The translations under genes and the position numbers were made by a program. Of a stretch of DNA of 39,964 nucleotides, positions 12,309 through 34,262 are shown piece by piece (position 1 is the first letter of the stretch; each line of letters opens with the position of its first letter). Origin of the DNA: Oscillospiraceae bacterium (GTDB lineage Bacteria > Bacillota > Clostridia > Oscillospirales > Oscillospiraceae); the NCBI GenBank assembly GCA_902795045.1, contig CADBJU010000011.1, forward strand, positions 1 to 39,964, written 5' to 3'. The notes beneath the pieces are model-generated. The model did no database searches, was not told where the DNA came from, and saw only the letters and a list, made by a program, of their open reading frames with translations.

Positions 12309-12335
12309 GTGTCTTGTCCTTCTTCTAAAAGTACT

Positions 12336-12482
12336 TGCCTCTCCCTCCGGGAGAGGTGCCCCAGTGTCGCAGCGCTGGGGCGGAGAGGGGCGTGTGTCGT
12401 CCGACACCCCTCTCAGTCACCAGTGTGCGCACTGGTGACAGCTCCCCCAGAGGGGGAGCCAAGGCCCCTTTCAGGGGAGCCG
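12336..12482. repeat. Family B palindromic repeat, copy B1
   Basis: This gap between the sensor kinase and the peptidase gene is a run of nested hairpins: CTCTCCCTCCGGGAGAG, CCCCAGTG/CGCTGGGG, GTGTCGTCCGACAC, CACCAGTGTGCGCACTGGTG and CTCCCCCAGAGGGGGAG. Blocks GACAGCTCCCC, CTCAGTC and CCAGTGTGCGCACTGG recur in copy B2. No coding content is supported. Confidence 0.75.
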
Positions 12483-12484
12483 GA

Positions 12485-25400: not shown

Positions 25401-26406
25401 CGGAAAAGAGGATGGCGCCGATCTCGGTCATGCGGTCGGTCTGGGCGTTGAGGCCGGTGGTCTCGATGTCGAAGGCCACGAACTCGGTATCCAGCGGGAG
25501 GCTCGATTTGCCGATGACGGCGCTGTTGCCGTCCATGTCGTTTAAGTAGTAGGCCTCCATGCCGTAGATGATCTTGACGCCCTCCTTCTTGCCCGCCTTC
25601 CACATGTCGGGGAAGGCCTGGGCCACGCCGTGGTCGGTGACCGCGATGGCGGGCATGCCCCAGTAGGCCGCGCGCTTGACCACGGCGGCGGGGTCGGTCA
25701 GGGCGTCGAGGGCGGAAAAGCGGGTGTGCAGATGCAGCTCCACGCGCTTTTCGGGCGCGTTGTCCGGGCGGATGACGCGCTTGGATTTCATGATGTTTCT
25801 GGGGTCGAGCACCATGTCGTCATCGTACTTGGAGTAGATGATCTCCCCCTGGACGACGAGATGATCGCCGGGCTTGATTTCGTCGATGATGCTTTTGTCG
25901 TCGTCCGAGCGCAGGAAGCGGGAAATGCGAATGGAATTGGTGCGGTCGGTCAGGTCAAAGCACAGGACAGCCCCGCCGCTTTTCTGGATGGTGCGGCTCG
26001 TGACCGCCACCACGTCGCCCTCCACCGCCACGCGTCCGCTCTCAAGGTTCAGCGTATTCATGGGCACGGGCTTCATCTTGATCTGCCGCCCCATCAGAAC
26101 GTTTCCCGTGGGCTTGGAGAAGTTGGAGCTCATGCGCGTGTCCACCGCCGCAGCGCTGGCTTTTACACGCGGATACTCCGGGAGGATTCCGACAGTGTCC
26201 AGAGCGTAGTCCAGGCGGATGTTCTCGCTGATGCGCTGGATATCCACCGGCGACGGCATGGACGCAAACCACGCCGCGATGGAGAGGCTTCGCTGCCTGA
26301 CATCCACCTGCACGTCGGTGACGTATGCCTTGTCCAGTCCTCCCGCCGCCGCGGATAAATTCTCACAGCCGGGGAAGATGGTCAGAAACGGGGTATGGTC
26401 GCTCAT
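22402..26406 (-). CDS. polC: DNA polymerase III alpha subunit, Gram-positive PolC
   Basis: 1334 residues. Domains in order: a short N-domain, OB fold (about 123-215), PHP (LHLHTRFSALDA, 224-235) split by an inserted DEDDh proofreading exonuclease (DIETTG 313-318, NAHFD 394-398, HHRASDD 450-456). Then come a zinc ribbon (CPKC...CPDC), the polymerase palm with PDIDLNFSGEYQ, and the fingers. The C-terminal QINLF is the beta-clamp-binding motif. It is the replicative polymerase of low-GC Gram-positive bacteria. It is about 100 residues shorter than the 1437-residue Bacillus protein, and the loss is all N-terminal. The ATG overlaps the ispG stop in an ATGA junction without a clear ribosome site, so translation is coupled to ispG. 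Confidence 0.98.
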   Translation of the reverse strand: MSDHTPFLTIFPGCENLSAAAGGLDKAYVTDVQVDVRQRSLSIAAWFASMPSPVDIQRISENIRLDYALDTVGILPEYPRVKASAAAVDTRMSSNFSKPTGNVLMGRQIKMKPVPMNTLNLESGRVAVEGDVVAVTSRTIQKSGGAVLCFDLTDRTNSIRISRFLRSDDDKSIIDEIKPGDHLVVQGEIIYSKYDDDMVLDPRNIMKSKRVIRPDNAPEKRVELHLHTRFSALDALTDPAAVVKRAAYWGMPAIAVTDHGVAQAFPDMWKAGKKEGVKIIYGMEAYYLNDMDGNSAVIGKSSLPLDTEFVAFDIETTGLNAQTDRMTEIGAILFSGTEIIDTFNTFVDPQRHIPPDITNLTGIRDSDVQGAPLEKEAMQMFMEFVGNRPIIAHNAHFDVGFMTAASIRQGLRFQPVFLDTLALSQALCPELKKFKLDIVSNHLGLPKFNHHRASDDAMVVARMMGKFLPMLKQQGAKTVDDIESVYHTLRRTDVAKTHHMILLVKNKVGLKNLYEMISQSYLKYFHRVPTIPKSLLLQHREGILVGSACGMGELYGAVMTGASHEELKKIASLYDYLEIQPICNNGFLVDNGRVSGVEVLQDYNRTILNLGREMGKPVIAASDTHFLDAEDEQYRKILQAAKKFSDADRDCPIFFRNTEEMLAEFMYLGKETAYEVVVTNTRAIADQVEEIELLPKDLFAPKIENSAEDLKRLVYEKMHRIYGDPAPEIVQKRVDIELNTILDHQYDVIYMSAQKLVQNSLENGYLVGSRGSVGSSIVAYMSGITEVNSLPPHYVCPKCKHSEFITDGSYGCGADMPEKDCPDCGARMRRDGFDIPFETFLGYPGNEKTPDIDLNFSGEYQAKAHKYTETLFGSDHVFRAGTIGTLAEKTAYGYVKKYLEERGITATKAEENRLALGLVGIKRTTGQHPGGLVVIPQDKDVTDFCPVQHPADDPNSDIITTHFEYHCMESNLLKLDELGHDDPTMIRMMEDMTGVDAKEISLSDPETMSIYTSPAALGLPDDDPIIGKTGTIGVPEFGTPFTRQMLVDTQPKGFDTLIRLSGFSHGTDVWAGNIHDLIVNGVASVNETIGCRDDIMLYLIQVGIEPSLAFKTMEAVRKGKVKKSGEFPGDAEQQMRDKGVPDWYIESARKIAYLFPKAHAVAYVMMAFRIAWFKVHEPLAFYSAYFYRRSQKGGFDAGSMCGGADDVRRRINEMHRRQNLTANEEDLLVTMEAVYEMNMRGFLFAPIDLYKSHATKFLITEDGKLRPPFVAISGLGETAAWDLMRAGESGQKFISVQELSGACPKVSQTHIEQLKALGALGELPDSNQINLFEM

Positions 26407-27467
26407 GCGTCAGCCCCGTCGCTTTCAATGAGGTCAATCAGCCGGTCACTGAGCTCCTCGTAGGGATATGTACCGAGCACCACACCCTTTTTGAAGAGCA
26501 GGCCCCGGCCCTTGCCGCCCGCGATGCCGTAGTCGGCCTCGCGCGCCTCGCCGGGTCCGTTGACCACGCAGCCCATGACGGCCACGGTGATGTCGCGCTT
26601 CATGTCCTTTACGCGCTGCTCCACCTCGGAGGCAAGGGAGATGAGGTCGATCTCCGTCCTGCCGCAGGTGGGGCAGGACACGAACTTCACCCCGCCGGGT
26701 CTGAGGCCCGCGGCCTTCAAAATGGCGATGCCGACCGAGACCTCGCGCACGGGATCGGCGGTGAGGGAGACGCGGATGGTGTCGCCGATGCCCTCGGAGA
26801 GGAGGGTGCCGATGCCGACGGCGGACTGGATGGTGCCGTTCCACTCGGTGCCCGTCTCGGTGACGCCGAGATGCAGGGGGTAGGGGAAGGTCTCGGCGGC
26901 GAGGCGGTAGCTGGCAATGGTCAGCGGCACGGAGGAGGTTTTGAGGGACAGGCAGATATCGTCAAAGCCGAACTTGTTCAGAAGCTCCACATGGCCCTGC
27001 GCGCTCTCGACCATGGCCTCCGGGCAGGGGTGGCCGTATTTTTCCACGAGCCGCTTTTCGAGCGAGCCCGCATTTACACCGATGCGGATGGGGATGTGCC
27101 GCGCCCTGCAGGCCTCGGCCACGGCCTTGACGTTTTCCTCGCCGCCGATGTTGCCGGGGTTGATGCGGATCTTGTCGATGCCGCGCGCGGCCGCCTCGAG
27201 CGCGAGGCGGTAGTCAAAATGGATATCCGCCACCAGCGGCACGCTTACCTGCTCCTTGATGGCGGAGACAGCCTTCGCCGCCTCCATATCGGGGATGGCA
27301 ATACGCACGATGTCCGCCCCCGCCGCCTGCATGGCGCGGATCTGCTTTACGGTGGCCTCCACGTCCCAGGTCTTGGTGGAGCACATGGTCTGTACCGTAA
27401 CGGGCGCGCCGCCGCCGACAGGCAGCGTGCCGAGGGTGATCTGTTTGGTTTTTGTTCTGTCTTTCAT
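26403..27467 (-). CDS. ispG: 4-hydroxy-3-methylbut-2-en-1-yl diphosphate synthase (IspG/GcpE)
   Basis: 354 residues, the usual bacterial length. It carries out the reductive ring opening of methylerythritol cyclodiphosphate in the non-mevalonate isoprenoid pathway. The N-terminal TIM barrel is followed by the iron-sulfur domain with Cys265, Cys268 (SCPTC), Cys300 (GCVVNGPGE) and Glu307, the four ligands of the [4Fe-4S] cluster. GAGGTG lies 5 bases before the ATG. dxr, the second enzyme of the same pathway, is two genes upstream, and the product feeds UppS, encoded just before dxr. Separated from rseP by repeat A3. Confidence 0.98.
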   Translation of the reverse strand: MKDRTKTKQITLGTLPVGGGAPVTVQTMCSTKTWDVEATVKQIRAMQAAGADIVRIAIPDMEAAKAVSAIKEQVSVPLVADIHFDYRLALEAAARGIDKIRINPGNIGGEENVKAVAEACRARHIPIRIGVNAGSLEKRLVEKYGHPCPEAMVESAQGHVELLNKFGFDDICLSLKTSSVPLTIASYRLAAETFPYPLHLGVTETGTEWNGTIQSAVGIGTLLSEGIGDTIRVSLTADPVREVSVGIAILKAAGLRPGGVKFVSCPTCGRTEIDLISLASEVEQRVKDMKRDITVAVMGCVVNGPGEAREADYGIAGGKGRGLLFKKGVVLGTYPYEELSDRLIDLIESDGADA

Positions 27468-27483
27468 GGCAGCACCTCATATC

Positions 27484-27572
27484 AAAGTGGAAAGAGAAAA
27501 GTGGAGAGTGAAGTTATGGCGTGCCGTTAGCACGGTATTTTCACTTTTCACTTTCCACTTTTCACTTTTTTA
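27484..27572. repeat. Family A palindromic repeat, copy A3, between rseP and ispG
   Basis: Left arm AAAGTGGAAAGAGAAAAGTG... from 27484, centre hairpin CGTGCCGTTAGCACG, right arm CACTTTTCACTTTCCACTTT... to 27572. The right arm ends in the TAA stop of rseP (27570-27572). Confidence 0.85.
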
Positions 27573-28631
27573 TTTCGTAAAGATCCTCCAGATGTCATGG
27601 AGCATCACAAAGGCCATCAGGGCAAGCAGGAGTACCATGCCGGCGGCGTGAATGTAGCCCTCGTACTTGGGGTTGAGCTTTTTGCCCGTCACGGTTTCGA
27701 TGATCCAGGTCACCAGCACCAGGAAGATCCTGCCGCCGTCCAGCGCCGGAAGGGGCAGCAGATTCATGATGGCGAGGTTGACCGCGATGAAGGCCGTGAG
27801 GTAGAAGATGTTGTAAAACGCGTCCCCGGTGGTCGGGGCAGATTCGCCGGTCTCAGCCATGAGGTCCACGATTCCCACCGGCCCGCTCATCTCCTCCACA
27901 CTGACCTTGCCGTGGATGAGCTCGTCAAGGCCCAGCTTCACCCAGCGTGAAAACTCCATGCAGGTGTTCCAGGCGTTTTTCAGCACCGTCAGGGGTGTCG
28001 CCTTCTCCTGGCCGAAGTAGAAGCCGTACATCTTCTGGCTCTGGCCCTCGTAGAGGATGCGCTCCATGGGGAAGTCTTTTAGTTGGATCTTTTCCCCGTC
28101 CCGCTTGAGCACAAGATCATAGACCCCGCTGCCCTGGTCGAGGAAATCACCCACGTCCATCTGCATGAAGATGCGCTTGCCGTCGATCTTATAAAACTCG
28201 TCGCCCTTGTGCAGGCCCTCCTCGCTCTGGTAGGGGCAGCCGGGCATAAAGTCCTCGATCACGCTTGTGCGGAAGCCGTAAGCGCCGGAGTAGAGGATGA
28301 TGACGATGACAAGGCCAAGCAGGAAGTTCATTGCAGCCCCGGCCGCGAGGATCAGGATCCGCTTCCAGGGGGCCTGGTTGGTGAAGGCCCGGGGATCGTT
28401 TGACTCCTCATCCTCGCCCATCATGGCGCAGTAGCCCCCGAAGGGCACGATGCGCAGGGAGTAGAGGGTCTCCTTCCCCTGCTTCTGCCAGATGGCGGGG
28501 CCCATGCCGAGGGCAAATTCCAGTACCTTTACGCCGCAGAGCTTTGCCACGGCGAAGTGGCCGAACTCATGGATGCCCACGAGCAGGCCGAACAGCAGGA
28601 TCGCAAGAATAGCATAAAGTGCGGTGGTCAT
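27570..28631 (-). CDS. rseP: Site-2 intramembrane zinc metalloprotease RseP
   Basis: 353 residues. HEFGH at 21-25 in the first membrane helix is the zinc site (His21, Glu22, His25), and LPALDGGR in the C-terminal helix pair supplies the third ligand Asp. A PDZ domain (about 130-200) lies between. Four membrane segments are predicted. RseP/RasP cleaves anti-sigma factors and remnant signal peptides inside the membrane. GGAGA lies 7 bases before the ATG. Its place between dxr and ispG matches other Firmicutes. The stop codon forms part of repeat A3. Confidence 0.97.
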   Translation of the reverse strand: MTTALYAILAILLFGLLVGIHEFGHFAVAKLCGVKVLEFALGMGPAIWQKQGKETLYSLRIVPFGGYCAMMGEDEESNDPRAFTNQAPWKRILILAAGAAMNFLLGLVIVIILYSGAYGFRTSVIEDFMPGCPYQSEEGLHKGDEFYKIDGKRIFMQMDVGDFLDQGSGVYDLVLKRDGEKIQLKDFPMERILYEGQSQKMYGFYFGQEKATPLTVLKNAWNTCMEFSRWVKLGLDELIHGKVSVEEMSGPVGIVDLMAETGESAPTTGDAFYNIFYLTAFIAVNLAIMNLLPLPALDGGRIFLVLVTWIIETVTGKKLNPKYEGYIHAAGMVLLLALMAFVMLHDIWRIFTK

Positions 28632-28671
28632 GCGGATGTCTCCTTCAAGAGAAAGTGGAGTGTTGTTCTCC

Positions 28672-28773
28672 GTAGGGGCGCTTCACGAAGCGCCCGCAAT
28701 ATATGGTAAGGTATACGTTATATGGTGGACAAATGCATATGATGGTACCGGGCGATTCGTGAATCGCCCCTAC
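28672..28773. repeat. Family D palindromic repeat between dxr and rseP
   Basis: Perfect 9-base inverted ends GTAGGGGCG (28672-28680) and CGCCCCTAC (28765-28773). Each end continues into its own small hairpin, GCGCTTCACGAAGCGC on the left and GCGATTCGTGAATCGC on the right. The 50 bases between are AT-rich without reading frame. Confidence 0.85.
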
Positions 28774-28779
28774 ATGTTT

Positions 28780-29922
28780 TCAATATTTTTCTCTCACGTA
28801 CGCCCTCGCGGCCTCGTCGGCGGCGAGGATGGTGTCGAGGTCCGGGTGCGCGGTGAAGGGGACGGCCTCGACGGCTCCGGCGGCGGCGTCATAGATGCGG
28901 TTGTAGCCCAGCTCTTTTCTGAGGAACTTGTGTACCGCCACCTCGTTTGCCGCCGACATGACGCAGGCCGCGGTGCCGCCTTTTCGCGCGCAGTCCATGG
29001 CGAGCCTGAGGCAGGGGGTCTTCTCGTAGTCGGGCGCTTCAAACGTGAGGTCGCGCAGCTTATAAAAGTCCAGATGCTCGAACATTGACGGGCAGCGCTC
29101 GGGATAGGTCAGGGCCAGCTGGATGGGAAGGCCCATGTCGGGAACGCCGAGCTGGGCGATCACCGTCCCGTCGCACAGCTCCACCATTGAGTGGATCACG
29201 CTCTGGGGGTGGACCACGACCGTGATATCATCGGGCGTGACCGAAAACAGGTGCATGGCCTCGATAAACTCCAGGCCCTTGTTCATCATGGTCGCGCTGT
29301 CCACCGAGATCTTCGCGCCCATGCTCCAGTTCGGGTGCGCCACCGCCTGCTCGGGCGTGACGTTTTCAAGCTCTGCGCGCGCTTTGCCGCGGAAGGGTCC
29401 GCCCGAGCCGGTGAGCAGGATCTTATGAAGCTCCCCGGGCTTTCTGCCCATGAGGCACTGGAAGATCGCCGAGTGCTCGGAGTCCACGGGTACGATCTCC
29501 GCGCCCTTGTCCCTGGCACGCTTCATCACGATCTCGCCCGCGCAGACCAGGGTCTCCTTGTTGGCAAGGGCAATGCGCTTGCGCTCGTCGATGGCGGCAA
29601 GCGTGGGCTTCAAGCCGATCGCGCCGGACACCGCCGTGACCACGCAGTCGGACTCCGAAAAGGTCGCGGCCTCCATCAGGCCTTCGATGCCCGAGCCGAC
29701 GCGGATGTCGGTATCGGCGACGGCGATCTTGAACGCCTTCGCCGCCTGCTCGTCGTAGACCGCGACAAAAGCGGGCCTGAATTTGCGGGCCTGCTCTTCC
29801 AGCAGGTCGATCTTGCGCTGGGCGGTCAGGGCCGCGACGCGAAGCCCCAGGTGCTCGGCGGCCCCCAGTGTCTGCCGCCCGATGGACCCGGTGCTGCCCA
29901 GAACGGAAATGGCGTTGACCAT
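28780..29922 (-). CDS. dxr: 1-deoxy-D-xylulose-5-phosphate reductoisomerase
   Basis: 380 residues, full length. N-terminal NADPH site GSTGSIGRQTL (9-19), metal-binding VPVDSEHSAIFQ, flexible loop with GSGGPFRG, and PNWSMGAKISVDSATMMNKGLE, all family signatures. It makes 2-C-methyl-D-erythritol 4-phosphate, the first committed step of the non-mevalonate pathway. CGAGGT precedes the ATG by about 7 bases. In most Firmicutes cdsA lies between uppS and dxr; here the 130-base gap holds only repeat A4 and unassigned sequence. Confidence 0.98.
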   Translation of the reverse strand: MVNAISVLGSTGSIGRQTLGAAEHLGLRVAALTAQRKIDLLEEQARKFRPAFVAVYDEQAAKAFKIAVADTDIRVGSGIEGLMEAATFSESDCVVTAVSGAIGLKPTLAAIDERKRIALANKETLVCAGEIVMKRARDKGAEIVPVDSEHSAIFQCLMGRKPGELHKILLTGSGGPFRGKARAELENVTPEQAVAHPNWSMGAKISVDSATMMNKGLEFIEAMHLFSVTPDDITVVVHPQSVIHSMVELCDGTVIAQLGVPDMGLPIQLALTYPERCPSMFEHLDFYKLRDLTFEAPDYEKTPCLRLAMDCARKGGTAACVMSAANEVAVHKFLRKELGYNRIYDAAAGAVEAVPFTAHPDLDTILAADEAARAYVREKY

Positions 29923-30023
29923 CGTATATTACCTCGGTATTTCTATAGTCTGTAGCTTACGCGGTTTTGATTGGAAATATGATGACAGTGTCGTTTCATC
30001 CGTCCGCAAAACGACGGCGCAGC

Positions 30024-30055
30024 TCCACTTTTCACTTTCCACTTTTCACTTTTTA
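30024..30055. repeat. Family A half-repeat, copy A4, between uppS and dxr
   Basis: A single arm of CACTTTTCACTTTCCACTTT type running into the TAA stop of uppS (30053-30055). No matching left arm is seen within 80 bases. The remaining 29923-30023 holds an imperfect hairpin (GTCGTTT...AAAACGAC) and no gene. Confidence 0.75.
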
Positions 30056-30787
30056 TTTGACGCCGCCGTAGCGCCGATCGCGGGCGTTGAAGACCGCGAT
30101 GGCCTTGTCCAGCTCCTCGGGGCTGAAGTCGGGCCAGAGCACATCCGTGAAGTAAAACTCGGCATAGGCGCACTGCCAGAGGAGAAAGTTGGAGATGCGC
30201 TGCTCCCCGCCCGGACGGATGAGCAGGTCGGGGTCGGGGATGCCCGCGGAATACAGGTAGCCCGCGAAATCCTCTTCGCTCACATTTTCGTCCGCCCTGC
30301 CCTCGGCGTAGTCCCGGGCATAGCGGCGCGCGGCGTGCAGGATCTCGTCCCGCCCGCCGTAGTTGAGGCAGATGTTGGCCTGGAAGCCCTCGTAGCGCCT
30401 GGAGATCTCGTCCGTCTTTTCCACCAGCGCCTGCAGCTCGGGGCTCAGGCCCTCCAGGTCGCCGAAGACCTTCATGCGGATGTGGTCCCGCTCCATGGTG
30501 TCGATGGCCTCATGGAGGTATTTGCCCAGCAGCTTCATGATGGCGGAAACCTCGCCCTCCGGGCGCTTCCAGTTTTCGGTGGAGAAGGCGTAGACCGTCA
30601 GGTACTCCACGCCGATATTTTTGCAGTAGGTGGCGATTTTGCGGAAGGTCTCCGCGCCGACGGCGTGGCCCGCGGTCCGGGGCAGGCCGCGCTTTTTTGC
30701 CCAGCGGCCGTTGCCGTCAAGTATAATGGCAATATGGCGGGGAACGCGGGTCTGCGCCCGCTCCCCCGCCGGATTGTTGTTAGGCAT
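30053..30787 (-). CDS. uppS: Undecaprenyl diphosphate synthase (cis-prenyltransferase)
   Basis: 244 residues. Catalytic Asp24 in IAIILDGNGRWAKKRG, the AFSTENWKRP motif near residue 70, and the C-terminal IRPGGEQRISNFLLWQCAYAE block are the conserved regions of the family. It makes the C55 lipid carrier for peptidoglycan and wall polymers by adding isopentenyl units supplied by the dxr-ispG route. AGGAG lies 6 bases before the ATG. The stop codon forms the edge of repeat A4; repeat B2 separates it from frr. Confidence 0.98.
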   Translation of the reverse strand: MPNNNPAGERAQTRVPRHIAIILDGNGRWAKKRGLPRTAGHAVGAETFRKIATYCKNIGVEYLTVYAFSTENWKRPEGEVSAIMKLLGKYLHEAIDTMERDHIRMKVFGDLEGLSPELQALVEKTDEISRRYEGFQANICLNYGGRDEILHAARRYARDYAEGRADENVSEEDFAGYLYSAGIPDPDLLIRPGGEQRISNFLLWQCAYAEFYFTDVLWPDFSPEELDKAIAVFNARDRRYGGVK

Positions 30788-30805
30788 ATGCTGCTCCTGT
30801 CGTTG

Positions 30806-30930
30806 GACCCTCTCCGCCCCAGTGTGCGCACTGGAGCACCTCCCCCAAAGGGGGAGGCAAGGAATTGGGTGCGGTTATTTATCTTGGCTCCCCCTCTGGG
30901 GGGAGCTGTCGCGAAGCGACTGAGAGGGTC
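30806..30930. repeat. Family B palindromic repeat, copy B2, between frr and uppS
   Basis: Perfect 9-base inverted ends GACCCTCTC (30806-30814) and GAGAGGGTC (30922-30930). Inside are CCAGTGTGCGCACTGG, CTCCCCCAAAGGGGGAG, GCTCCCCCTCTGGGGGGAGC and GTCGCGAAGCGAC hairpins. The right end touches the frr stop codon (TGA at 30929-30931). Confidence 0.85.
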
Positions 30931-31480
30931 AAATCTCCGTCAGTTCCTTTTCCTTCTTCTCGCAGATCTTGTCGATCTCCTTGATGAAGTCATCGGTCAG
31001 CTTCTGGATATCCTTCTCGGCGATCTTGTAGTCGTCCTCGGTGATCTCGGAGGCCTTCTGCTGCTTCTTCATTTTCTCCACGGCGTCGCGGCGGATGTTG
31101 CGGATGGCGACCTTGGAGGTCTCGCCGTACTTCTTGGTCTGCTTGACCAGGTCCTTGCGGCGCTCCTCGGTCAGCGGCGGGAAGACCAGGCGGATGGCTC
31201 GGCCGTCGTTCTGAGGGTTGATGCCCAGGTCGGAGGCCAGGATCGCCTTTTCGATCGCCTTGAGCAGGCTTGCGTCCCAGGGCTGGATCATCAGGGAACG
31301 GGGGTCGGGGGTAGAGACGGACGCCACCTGGAGCAGGGGCGTGTCCACGCCGTAGTAATTGACGGTGATGGGATTGAGCACAGCGGTGTTGGCTCTGCCC
31401 GCGCGGATGGCGTCGAGGTCAGAGGTGAGCGCGTCGCAGGTCTTTTGCATCTTGCGTTCGATTTCAGGATAGTCAGACAT
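30929..31480 (-). CDS. frr: Ribosome recycling factor
   Basis: 183 residues, standard length. Two-domain pattern: long three-helix bundle with the signature RAGRANTAVLNPITVNYYG near the start, then a beta domain with TPDPRSLMIQPWD and DGRAIRLVFPPLTEERRKDL, and the closing helix. It splits post-termination ribosomes with EF-G. GGAGGTACGAAC precedes the ATG. The order pyrH-frr-uppS is conserved in Firmicutes. Repeats C2 and B2 flank the gene. Confidence 0.98.
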   Translation of the reverse strand: MSDYPEIERKMQKTCDALTSDLDAIRAGRANTAVLNPITVNYYGVDTPLLQVASVSTPDPRSLMIQPWDASLLKAIEKAILASDLGINPQNDGRAIRLVFPPLTEERRKDLVKQTKKYGETSKVAIRNIRRDAVEKMKKQQKASEITEDDYKIAEKDIQKLTDDFIKEIDKICEKKEKELTEI

Positions 31481-31519
31481 GTTCGTACCTCCGTTTTTTA
31501 TATTTTACGTTTTTGATAC

Positions 31520-31593
31520 GTCATTCTGAGCGTCAGCGAAGAATCTTTTTCAGCTTGTACCGGGAAAAGATCCTTCGCTTCGCTCAGGATGAC
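31520..31593. repeat. Family C palindromic repeat, copy C2, between pyrH and frr
   Basis: Left end GTCATTCTGAGCGTCAGCGA and right end TCGCTTCGCTCAGGATGAC are inverted; inner AGCGAAGAATC and GATCCTTCGCT also pair. Shares its ends with C1. Confidence 0.85.
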
Positions 31594-31601
31594 ATGGTTT
31601 T

Positions 31602-32309
31602 TTACTCCACGATGGTTCCCACGTTTTCGCCCGCCAGAACACGCAGGATGTTCTCGGGCCGGGCCAGGGCGAAGACTGCGGCGGGGATGTTGTTCTCCAT
31701 GGCAAGGGCCGTGGCGGTGGTGTCCATGACGGCGAGGTGTCTCGCCAGGACTTCGTCATAACTGATCGCGTCGAATTTGACCGCCGTCGGGTCCTTTCTC
31801 GGATCGGCGGAGTAGACGCCGTCGATGTTCTTGGCAAGGAGGATGCCGTCGGCGTGGATCTCGGCCGCGCGCAGAGCGGCCGCGGTATCGGTGGAGAAGA
31901 AGGGCGCGCCGCTGCCGCCGGCGAAGAGAACGATCTCGCCCGCCTCGAGGTACTCGATGGCGCGGCGGGTATCGTAGCGCTCGCCCACGCCCATGATGTC
32001 CACGGCGGTCATGACACGCGCCTTCGCGCCGAGCTGACGCAGCACATCGCACACGGCAATGCAGTTCATGCAGGTGGCGAGCATGCCCATGCGGTCGGCG
32101 TTGACGCGCTCGACCTTCCCGGCTCCGTCCTTGACGCCGCGCCAGAAGTTGCCGCCGCCGATGACGATGCCGATCTGTGTGCCCTGCTCGGAGGCCTTTT
32201 TCAGCACCTCGCACACGGTGGAGATGAGGTCAAAGTCAAAGCCGGTCTTCTTCTCCCCGGCCAGTGCCTCACCGCTGATCTTGATAACGACACGGTTGAA
32301 CTTTTTCAT
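31602..32309 (-). CDS. pyrH: UMP kinase
   Basis: 235 residues of the amino-acid kinase fold. Motifs: KISGEALAG at the N-terminus (ATP phosphate binding), IGIVIGGGNFWRG, DRMGMLATCMNCIAV (the UMP/GTP site) and GSGAPFFSTDTAAALRAAEI. It phosphorylates UMP to UDP and is essential for pyrimidine nucleotide supply. The start is the ATG at 32309 (MKKFNRVVIKISGEAL), with AAGGAAAGGAA 8-14 bases upstream. The usual upstream partners rpsB and tsf are absent; an EamA transporter gene is there instead, separated by repeat B3. Confidence 0.97.
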   Translation of the reverse strand: MKKFNRVVIKISGEALAGEKKTGFDFDLISTVCEVLKKASEQGTQIGIVIGGGNFWRGVKDGAGKVERVNADRMGMLATCMNCIAVCDVLRQLGAKARVMTAVDIMGVGERYDTRRAIEYLEAGEIVLFAGGSGAPFFSTDTAAALRAAEIHADGILLAKNIDGVYSADPRKDPTAVKFDAISYDEVLARHLAVMDTTATALAMENNIPAAVFALARPENILRVLAGENVGTIVE

Positions 32310-32330
32310 GATGATAGTTCCTTTCCTTAT

Positions 32331-32428
32331 TGCCTCCCCTGAAAGGGGAGGTGGTCCGCAGGACCGGAGGGGTAACTCCTCAGTCCCGGCGGCAAACCGC
32401 CGCGACAGCTCCCCTTGCAGGGGAGCCA
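32331..32428. repeat. Family B palindromic repeat, copy B3, between the EamA gene and pyrH
   Basis: Hairpins CTCCCCTGAAAGGGGAG, GTCCGCAGGAC, GGCGGCAAACCGCC and CTCCCCTTGCAGGGGAG in a row, sharing CTCAGTC and GACAGCTCCCC with copies B1 and B2. Confidence 0.8.
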
Positions 32429-32430
32429 TA

Positions 32431-33342
32431 TTAAATGTCCAAAATTCCCAGAATAATGATGCCCGCCACGACGGCCGCGATGCTGAGATAGTGCTTGGCG
32501 GAGAGCCTTTCCTTGAGGAAGATGTGGCTCCACAGCACGCTTGCCACGCAATAGCTGGAGATGATGGGCGCGGCGAAGGCCACATGGGCGCTGTCGGCGA
32601 TCGCATAGATATAGAAGAACTGGCCGATGGTCTCAAAGACCGCGCCGGTGTACTTGGGCAGTTCCTGACGGGCGATGAGCTTCTGCTTTTTGATGCCCAG
32701 CACATAGATCGCGCAGCAGATGCCCACGGCGAGGAAGGTCAGCTCATAGGCACAGTTGGCGCTGTCCTCGTTGAGCGTTTCGAGCACGATGCTGTCGGCA
32801 AAGGTGCCCAGCGCGTCCAGCAGGCAGTAGATGACGGGGATGGCGATGGCGATCCAGCTCTTGGCGTAGTGGTGGTTGGAGGCGTCCTGGCGCGCTTTTC
32901 TGAGTTCCTCGTCCTCGTTGGCCTCGACAAAGCCGAGGGCGATGACGCCGCCCGCCACCAGCGCCACGGCCAGCAGTGCCACGGGGGGCAGGTCCTCACT
33001 GATGCCTTTGGTGGCAAAGGTCAAAAGCGCCACGATCGCGCCGGAGCTGTTGCAAATGGGCGAGGAGATCGAAAGCTCAATATACCGCAGCCCCAGATAG
33101 CCGATGGCCATGGAGAGGATATAGAGCATGGAGACGGGCAGGTAGGTGATGATGACGTGCCAGTTCATTTCCACGCCGTCTGCGAAGATTTCGTAAGCTG
33201 CGTGCAGGCCCATTACCAGGCCCACCGCCATGACCATTTTCAGGTGACTGTACTTGTCCTTCTGATCCTGGCAGCCGATTTTGGAAAACAGATCTGAGCC
33301 GCTCCAGCACAGGAGCGCGATGATTGCGAAGGTAAACCACAT
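32431..33342 (-). CDS. EamA/DMT-superfamily transporter
   Basis: 303 residues with about ten predicted membrane helices in two related halves, starting MWFTFAIIALLCWSGSDLFSKIG. The C-terminal half ends with EETIGQFFYIYAIADSAHVAFAAPI-like helices and VLWSHIFLKERLSAKHYLSIAAVVAGIIILG, where FLKERLS is typical of EamA proteins. These proteins move small metabolites or drugs; the substrate is unknown. The start is the ATG at 33342, AGAGGA 10 bases upstream; longer in-frame versions run across the predicted promoter. It is the first gene of the reverse series that continues with pyrH, and a promoter at 33393-33421 precedes it. Confidence 0.85.
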   Translation of the reverse strand: MWFTFAIIALLCWSGSDLFSKIGCQDQKDKYSHLKMVMAVGLVMGLHAAYEIFADGVEMNWHVIITYLPVSMLYILSMAIGYLGLRYIELSISSPICNSSGAIVALLTFATKGISEDLPPVALLAVALVAGGVIALGFVEANEDEELRKARQDASNHHYAKSWIAIAIPVIYCLLDALGTFADSIVLETLNEDSANCAYELTFLAVGICCAIYVLGIKKQKLIARQELPKYTGAVFETIGQFFYIYAIADSAHVAFAAPIISSYCVASVLWSHIFLKERLSAKHYLSIAAVVAGIIILGILDI

Positions 33343-33392
33343 GGAATGCTTGTCCTCTTTCTCTACAGTATGCGCAAAGCGTACCACGATTG

Positions 33393-33421
33393 ATAATACC
33401 ACAGGATCAAGCATTTGACAA
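33393..33421 (-). promoter_or_regulatory. Predicted sigma-A promoter of the EamA-pyrH-frr series
   Basis: On the reverse strand TTGTCA (33416-33421), 17 bases, TATTAT (33393-33398). No other clear promoter was seen before pyrH, so it may serve the whole series. Confidence 0.7.
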
Positions 33422-33479
33422 TTATAAGTTTTGCGCTGCCTTTCATGCGACATATCTCGCATGCCGTCTGTGCTACAAT
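33414..33479 (+). promoter_or_regulatory. Putative spoIIGA promoter region with two 0A-box-like sites
   Basis: TACAAT (33474-33479) is a -10-like hexamer only 6 bases before the spoIIGA ATG. Upstream are TGCGACA (33446-33452) and TTTGACA (33414-33420). Each differs by one base from TTCGACA, the inverted 0A box, and they are 32 bases apart. If transcription starts near 33486 they lie around -40 and -72. No good -35 hexamer is seen, as is usual for Spo0A-dependent spoIIG promoters. Confidence 0.4.
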
Positions 33480-33485
33480 GCGTGC

Positions 33486-34262
33486 ATGAACATCATCTAC
33501 GCGGATACGCTCTTTGCCCTCAGCGTGTTTACGGATTACCTGCTGCTCGTGGTGACGGCGCGCTTTTGTTCGCTCAGGCTCCGGCGCCGGCGTTATCTGG
33601 CCGCGGCGGTGCTCGGCGGGGTATACGCGGTGGCGGTGTTTCTGCCGGGCTGCGCCTGGATGGCCCACCCGCTGGTCGAGCTCTGTGCCGCGGGTTTCAT
33701 GGGCCTTCTGGCCTTCGGCGGCGAGGAAAAGCTTTTTCGCTGCTGCGCGGCCTTCCTGGCGGTGTCGGCGAGCTTCGGCGGCGCCGCCTGGGCGGTGTGC
33801 ATGCGAAGCGGCGGGACGGACATCCGGCTGCTCGCCGCCGTGTTTCTCGGCAGCTATGCCTTGCTGACGCTCTTGTCGTACACCCGCAGGCGCCGGGCGC
33901 GGGAGCACCGTGTCGGGGTGACGCTGACCCTCGGGCCGCGCAGCGCGGCCTTCACCGCCCTGGAGGACAGCGGCAACTGTCTCACCGATCCTGTCACCTG
34001 CGACCGGGTGCTGCTGGCAAGCCCCGCGGCGCTTCGTCCGCTCTTCCCCGGGCAGGAGGCGTTTTTGGAGCTCGGCGCGGTGGAGCTGGTGCAAAACGCC
34101 GCGCCCTGCCGCTTTCGCCTGCTGCGGTGCGGGAGCATCGGCGGTCCCGCGCTCCTCGCCGCCTTCCGTCCGGACACGGTCACGGTGGACGGAGAAAAGC
34201 GCTCCCTGCTCGTCGCGGTAAGCGAAAACGCGCAGGGCGACGGATTTGAGGGAATCTTTTGA
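33486..34262 (+). CDS. spoIIGA: Sporulation sigma-E factor-processing peptidase SpoIIGA
   Basis: 258 residues. Five N-terminal membrane helices (MNIIYADTLFALSVFTDYLL onwards to about 132) precede a cytoplasmic aspartic protease domain with Asp161-Ser-Gly (ALEDSGNCLTDP), matching the DSGN of the Bacillus protein. It removes the pro-sequence of sigma-E in the mother cell in response to SpoIIR. It is about 50 residues shorter than the Bacillus enzyme. The ATG at 33486 aligns with the family start, but no ribosome site precedes it; a longer frame starting at 33390 would add residues unlike the family. pro-sigE follows 37 bases later. Confidence 0.93.
   Translation: MNIIYADTLFALSVFTDYLLLVVTARFCSLRLRRRRYLAAAVLGGVYAVAVFLPGCAWMAHPLVELCAAGFMGLLAFGGEEKLFRCCAAFLAVSASFGGAAWAVCMRSGGTDIRLLAAVFLGSYALLTLLSYTRRRRAREHRVGVTLTLGPRSAAFTALEDSGNCLTDPVTCDRVLLASPAALRPLFPGQEAFLELGAVELVQNAAPCRFRLLRCGSIGGPALLAAFRPDTVTVDGEKRSLLVAVSENAQGDGFEGIF

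Follow-up and report, generated by a model that had tools for sequence, protein, structure and literature searches.

The window analysed here, the whole 39,964-nucleotide (nt) stretch of DNA, comes from the genome of an uncultured Oscillospiraceae bacterium (2.75 Mb, 92% complete; labelled G000) and holds an operon in which repeat elements of different families lie between essentially every pair of genes. The names and the order of polC, ispG, rseP, dxr, uppS, frr and pyrH are backed by NCBIfam; for eamA only transporter models were found, with scores below their cut-offs. From eamA to polC the seven junctions measure 121, 121, 141, 130, 148, 102 and -4 nt, and an element is present in each of the first six. 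These elements belong to multi-copy families that are spread genome-wide. The operon and its occupants, with the folding score against shuffled sequences (z), are the following.

26403..33342, minus strand: operon eamA-pyrH-frr-uppS-dxr-rseP-ispG, then polC (NCBIfam matches and reading of the gaps)
32330..32427, minus strand: palindromic element of family B in the eamA-pyrH gap, 3 nt past the eamA stop; two double-hairpin half-units, inverted; z -5.37
31520..31593, minus strand: family C1 element between pyrH and frr, an inverted pair TGTCATCCTGAGC.../...GCTCAGAATGAC, 7-8 nt past the pyrH stop; z -7.69
30806..30930, minus strand: family B element between frr and uppS; the frr stop codon, TGA, takes its GA from the element's first bases; z -5.65
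30023..30052, minus strand: family A half element between uppS and dxr, a one-sided heptad array right behind the uppS stop, with no palindrome; z -0.53
28672..28773, minus strand: family D element between dxr and rseP, two GTAG-tagged hairpins with the tags facing outward, 6 nt past the dxr stop; z -5.78
27484..27569, minus strand: family A element between rseP and ispG, inverted heptad arrays flanking a small hairpin, right behind the rseP stop; z -5.77

In this order the elements begin about 3, 7, -2, 0, 6 and 0 nt from the upstream stop. Five of the six junctions fold far better than their shuffled versions (z from -5.4 to -7.7, with 0/200 shuffles as good). The array between uppS and dxr is one-sided and folds no better than shuffles (61/200 as good), so the tally is five palindromic elements and one half element, from four families, with A and B occurring twice each. 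The initial annotation had placed a palindromic repeat from one of four unrelated families in all six gaps and none between ispG and polC. Four families (A, B, C1 and D) can indeed be read and every one of the six gaps does carry a repeat element, although the half array at uppS-dxr is no palindrome. The ispG-polC junction, a 4-nt overlap, is element-free as described, and this gap is -4 or -8 nt in the six relatives of clade I (defined below) in which it was resolved, one strand being viewed. Rfam gave no match at gathering score in the window.

Strong hairpins directly behind stop codons could be intrinsic terminators or attenuators between the genes, and the initial annotation had offered partial termination as one of their roles. 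A search of 26400-33500 for stems with a T-run behind them gave none on the transcribed minus strand; all five hits lie on the other strand, with 6.1 expected over both. This role is highly improbable, and the suggestion of partial terminators is not supported.

The operon was compared across 80 named loci, and junctions were counted only where both genes were resolved. Two element-rich groups, clade I and clade II, were named after their gaps had been seen and were then checked on a maximum likelihood tree of five concatenated proteins, whose support values were not inspected. The operon is usually compact, with a gap below 30 nt at dxr-rseP in 48/78, at rseP-ispG in 54/67 and at frr-uppS in 63/72 resolved loci. 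An element of these families occupies 26/41 resolved junctions in the clade I relatives and 13/26 in clade II, against 5/180 in 37 other congeners (dxr identity of at least 74%, outside both rich groups) and 4/138 in distant relatives. One of the latter, L113, with 70% dxr identity, nevertheless has heptad arrays at both dxr-rseP and rseP-ispG. The occupants themselves change from one relative to the next. The dxr-rseP junction carries family D in G000, A in L062, E in L063, A together with B in L111, A in L068 and B in L076 and L085; rseP-ispG carries A in G000 and L062, E in L063, B in L111 and L068 and D in L069. The comparison with close relatives for which the initial annotation had called has thus shown that a given junction may hold an unrelated family in a sister species, or be empty there. 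Such different repeats at the same spots make the junctions look more like recurrent landing sites for mobile hairpins than like individually tuned switches. Dose control tuned gene by gene, which the annotation had also proposed, is weakened by the sisters that carry unrelated families or nothing and by the 37 congeners with 5/180 junctions filled.

The divergence from G000 at 4-fold sites is 12.2% for the sister G027 and 13.4% for L062. Between G000 and L062, 5/6 operon gaps have been replaced in comparison with 4/19 other gaps (p 0.012); this count covers 25 of 30 orthologous junctions and leaves aside those that are shorter than 20 nt in both. The eamA-pyrH gap has another occupant in a sister species. 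The frr-uppS gap is 1 nt long in L062, an empty site, and about 140 nt in G000 and G027; this filled and empty pair breaks 0-2 nt from the stop. A search for the frr-uppS tail gave no second copy genome-wide within 3 mismatches, and hence no donor copy. Elsewhere, 16/142 orthologous junctions of G000 and G027 differ in length by at least 60 nt. Five clean pairs, picked by eye from 12 of these 16 that were printed, break 0-2 nt past the stop (C11:12309, C11:34263, C2:63380, C14:163338 and C16:9816). An insertion of this kind outside the operon is

12331..12484, minus strand: family B insertion of 154 nt, 0 nt past a stop codon, where the gap is only 24 nt in both sister species

The genome-wide background was taken from a sample of 1.26 Mb, or 46% of G000. 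Genes came from a small home-made Markov caller, whose starts may be off, and elements were recognised by self-BLAST of the gaps, either loosely (the DNA recurs in one or more other gaps) or strictly (in two or more). Self-BLAST in 46% of a genome misses low-copy families, and the D element failed the stricter threshold. Under the loose criterion elements occupy 199/829 same-direction, 45/115 convergent and 29/117 divergent gaps, and under the strict one 174, 40 and 28 gaps, respectively. Among 281 runs of six consecutive same-direction junctions only one is fully occupied on the loose count, and it is this operon; on the strict count none is full and the operon scores 5. The runner-up, C15:65646-75653 (L171), has 5/6 junctions filled and consists of genes for NAD synthase, two tRNA synthetases, a pseudouridine synthase and signal peptidase II, with DivIVA and SepF adjoining, again housekeeping genes.

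Operon junctions were also set against the rest in several species with one detection method for all, the background being the operon's own contig except in G000; p values are uncorrected and the species are related. In G000 6/7 operon junctions are occupied versus 111/826 elsewhere (p 4e-5). The figures are 5/7 versus 9/40 for G027 (p 0.018), 5/6 versus 6/106 for G062 (p 2e-5), and 4/7 versus 5/32, 4/7 versus 6/51 and 3/6 versus 8/65 for G060, G063 and G064 (p 0.013-0.044). Each of the six species sampled from clade I thus has an over-occupied operon (p 2e-5 to 0.044). In clade II, G033 has 2/6 versus 1/78 (p 0.012). Two compact genomes have 0/6 versus 2/40 (G012) and 0/7 versus 0/71 (G013). 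G032, with no dxr in the stretch, gave no count. The initial annotation had held that repeats collect in this operon, and that an equal share in all gaps, together with RNA levels unchanged across the repeats, would speak for neutral insertion. The collecting is borne out in G000 and an excess is found in six further element-rich species, four of them picked as filled; the share in G000 is unequal.

The elements are moreover anchored to stop codons. In 95/199 occupied same-direction gaps (loose) the element lies within 5 nt of the upstream stop, where 40.5 would be expected with uniform placement and 70.2 with the last 20 nt barred. Where at least 80 nt of free space is available the excess is sharper, with 19/92 within 5 nt and 3.3 and 3.9 expected (14/87 and 3.1-3.6 on the strict count); the same count made at the start of the downstream gene gives 5. 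Convergent gaps with the same free space are also enriched (4/13 within 5 nt, 1.0 expected), and divergent gaps show no clear enrichment (3/24, 1.9 expected). By family, 7/7 elements of A, 36/45 of B and 16/42 of C are found within 5 nt of a stop, and altogether 117/199 elements of same-direction gaps are within 15 nt. The stop is TAA in 54/95 upstream genes with an element within 5 nt and in 310/734 of the rest.

These observations bear on the possibility that the repeats land anywhere and survive where nothing breaks, hence at junctions, with neither targeting nor effect. About a quarter of all same-direction gaps carry an element, the element-poor congeners run the same operon nearly element-free, and conserved element gaps elsewhere on contig C11 diverge between G000 and G027 like other gaps (70/1061 versus 88/1429 sites). 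All of this speaks for neutral accumulation. However, anchoring to the stop persists where there is ample room, it appears also in convergent gaps where there is no ribosome-binding site to spare, and in several species the operon's junctions are filled beyond the background rate, the way these species were chosen being a caveat. We regard neutral accumulation as possible, though doubtful.

We favour, with moderate confidence, the explanation that the junction repeats are non-coding palindromes resembling repetitive extragenic palindromic (REP) sequences, bacterial interspersed mosaic elements (BIMEs) or miniature inverted-repeat transposable elements (MITEs), which land or persist just behind stop codons and for which this operon is a recurrent target. 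The elements differ between sisters, and several species share the over-occupied operon while a given junction in it holds different families. The site next to the stop may be the preferred landing site or simply the best tolerated one, because an insertion there would disrupt neither reading frame and would spare the next ribosome-binding site. Less firmly, the transcribed hairpin might act on the upstream gene, through ribosome stalling as reported for REPs near stop codons in E. coli, or might protect the 3' end; such an effect would not be specific to a family and the occupants could therefore be interchangeable. The wider proposal, in which unrelated palindrome families share a landing rule at stops or within a few bases of them, through a mechanism that uses neither the known REP-associated tyrosine transposase (RAYT) nor a reverse transcriptase, and a heavily targeted essential operon swaps interchangeable hairpins among sisters, is unlikely.

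Several results weigh against the favoured explanation. The Y1 transposase (RAYT) model PF01797 had no match in the 92%-complete G000, while the control search was positive in 5/14 genomes; nor was the reverse transcriptase PF00078 found in G000, these two being the only mobilising enzymes searched for. Inspection of the clean pairs by eye showed no obvious target-site duplication, the breakpoints being ambiguous by 1-2 nt. Among the remaining seven printed pairs, the convergent C14:175654 has its break about 35 nt away from the left stop; most are multi-part, and some were too complex to place. The run of six filled junctions within G000 alone is only borderline surprising, since shuffling the flags over all same-direction gaps in 1000 trials gives a full run in 5.4% (loose) or 1.9% (strict) of them, and in 4.7% and 2.6% when only gaps of at least 25 nt are used. 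The excess across species strengthens the case for clustering, subject to the species choice: G060, G062, G063 and G064 entered the sample on account of operon gaps already seen to be filled, L063 and L065 of the same clade lie outside the sample, and the species are related by descent, so that the tests are non-independent, though the occupants mostly differ.

The anchoring itself has two sides. On a stricter measure 35/85 stop-reaching elements run at least 6 nt into the coding sequence, and the other 50/85 cover at most 5 nt of it. The extension is at least 9 nt in 28 gaps, and in the 25 of these that were printed the overlap appears to come mostly from alignments that run on by chance; in several of them the stop is clearly inside the element, for example at C1:92850, where TAG is given by a GTAG end. 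Part of the anchoring thus arises because some elements supply the stop themselves, and stop anchoring alone cannot separate targeting from selection.

Selection would be the key to another explanation, in which each hairpin sets the level of a neighbouring gene and is kept for that purpose. Over the five alignable operon element gaps, G000 and G027 differ at 6/639 sites, in comparison with 158/2490 in the other gaps of C11 and 275/6177 in the coding sequence of the operon. Ribosome stalling has been reported for REPs within 15 nt of a stop in passages of PMC12306157, and parts of PMC5927463 describe intergenic structures that stabilise operon segments. This first contrast was striking, and purifying selection on the operon elements was considered. 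It was demoted, and selection is not claimed, because 3/13 conserved element gaps elsewhere differ at 1% of sites or less and because the pair L065/L068 differs at 10/298 sites, near its coding average. Moreover 5/6 junctions are replaced in L062 at similar divergence, and by eye the spacers of the operon elements look as conserved as the stems. Selected dose control seems unlikely. A ribosome-binding site brought by the element was also tried and rejected: an AAGGA-like motif follows B-type ends in 8/24 cases near a start and in 4/103 elsewhere, and it was read as the gene's own.

Occupants could finally be exchanged by homologous recombination of short tracts at the junction, without fresh insertion. 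At rseP-ispG the stop and the ribosome-binding flank are the same in G000 and L062, yet the heptad elements enclosed by them differ. The right flank of eamA-pyrH in G000 is unlike that of both sisters, and at frr-uppS more than 50 nt of either flank is identical in G000 and G027, without single-nucleotide polymorphisms (SNPs). At pyrH-frr, dxr-rseP and rseP-ispG, however, at least one flank has SNPs at a distance of about 11-25 nt. The 4-fold divergence at gene ends (12.5% and 11.0%) is not clearly lower than in the middles (13.6%), and recombination tracts around the junctions were rejected as a candidate for want of a clear drop. Any such tracts would have to be short, and an exchange of this type is quite unlikely.

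Some neighbouring features differ among the relatives. The usual place of cdsA is between uppS and dxr. It is not in the operon of G000 (29923-30052 of the window is the uppS-dxr gap), and a CTP_transf_1 match lies on another contig of this genome (C6:20610-21374). In many congeners the spacing between uppS and dxr is about 670-790 nt (one strand viewed). In L064 this interval holds an open reading frame (ORF) with a DNA_alkylation match (PF08713; L064:3183-3989); there is none at the uppS-dxr junction of G000, a genome that has such a match on C36. The eamA-pyrH gap of the sister G027 is 1103 nt long, with about 1 kb in place of the element; by eye this looks like an ORF whose start resembles a zinc ribbon.

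Family B units were collected by sequence pattern (n=84), and their ends are linked: a GGCT start goes with CTGA in 60/60 and a GCCT start with CGGA in 24/24. The stem CTCCCCC has the tail GAGGG in 49/49 units and CTCCCTC has GGGAG or AGGAG in 33/33, two units having other stems. The second hairpin occurs as 59 distinct sequences in the 84 units, and its stem reaches at least 5 in 65/84 in comparison with 8/84 after one shuffle each; pairing is maintained while the sequence drifts. The tip CCAGTGCGCACACTGG is common to B and C2, which suggests that tips may be exchanged between these families. The hairpin of family D reads by eye as GTAG GGGCGATTC AC GAATCGCCC, which fits the layout of GTAG REPs, where the tag adjoins a stem of 5-13 bp that has a loop of 2-20. 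The D1 pattern of 22 bases has only 5 matches genome-wide at 0-1 mismatch, and a related GTAGGGGCC family is commoner. In C1 and C2 a CGTC or TGTC tag is followed by a stem starting with AT, as in CGTC REPs (copies CGTCATTGCGAG and TGTCATYCTGAGC among those printed). Against the CGTC layout of an 8-9 bp stem, a loop of 4-5 and a CCA tail, the arms of C1 mismatch at two places and the tip of C2 is long and variable, by eye. Families C and D appear from their sequences to resemble CGTC- and GTAG-tagged REPs, respectively. In the heptad search of family A 2/19 hits were runs of N, which were excluded in a later search.

It has long been asked whether REP-like palindromes near stops have a function or are just tolerated. 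Sister species here offer one essential operon with naturally filled, empty and swapped junctions and nearly identical proteins, so that the effect of a hairpin behind a stop could become directly measurable. A further suggestion is that mobile palindromes can quickly alter the spacing of an operon and its translational coupling.

The layout of two unit types in inverted orientation, B1 and B2, presumably resembles that of E. coli REP/BIME. As in those, palindromes lie within 15 nt of stops; the sequences are unrelated as far as seen, and passages of PMC12306157, in which ribosome stalling is cited, give 446/4,072 REPs within this distance compared with 117/199 here. The GTAG REPs described in parts of Di Nocera et al. 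(2013, PMC3733652) share with family D the GTAG beside a GC-rich hairpin, the inverted paired units, the intergenic position and the nearness to gene 3' ends. Their GTAG end can, and often does, supply a TAG stop, here in one printed case (C1:92850). Their association with RAYT/Y1 differs from G000, in which PF01797 was not found, and the D1 pattern is rare (5 matches). The CGTC REPs of the same source, also close to gene 3' ends, resemble C1 and C2 in the CGTC or TGTC tag followed by AT, the inverted dimers and the lack of a dedicated or known transposase; the mismatches in the C1 stem and the long variable tip of C2 are unlike them, and the words Firmicutes and Clostridi- are absent from the main text of PMC3733652. 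In the pneumococcus, passages of PMC3049150 describe three small-repeat families (BOX, RUP and SPRITE) which, as here, are unrelated, inserted into each other and enriched between convergent genes; over-occupation of one essential operon by families that differ between sisters does not appear in those passages. Protective intergenic structures within operons are known from parts of PMC5927463. The kind of element and its bias to gene 3' ends are already known. Families A and B had no match among the known repeats found in the literature search (sequence strings and words), and the titles listed gave no description of them or of an operon whose occupants change between sisters. Cyanobacteria have heptameric short tandem repeats, and family A likewise forms arrays with a 7-nt period, which in this genome are inverted around a hairpin and placed at stop codons.

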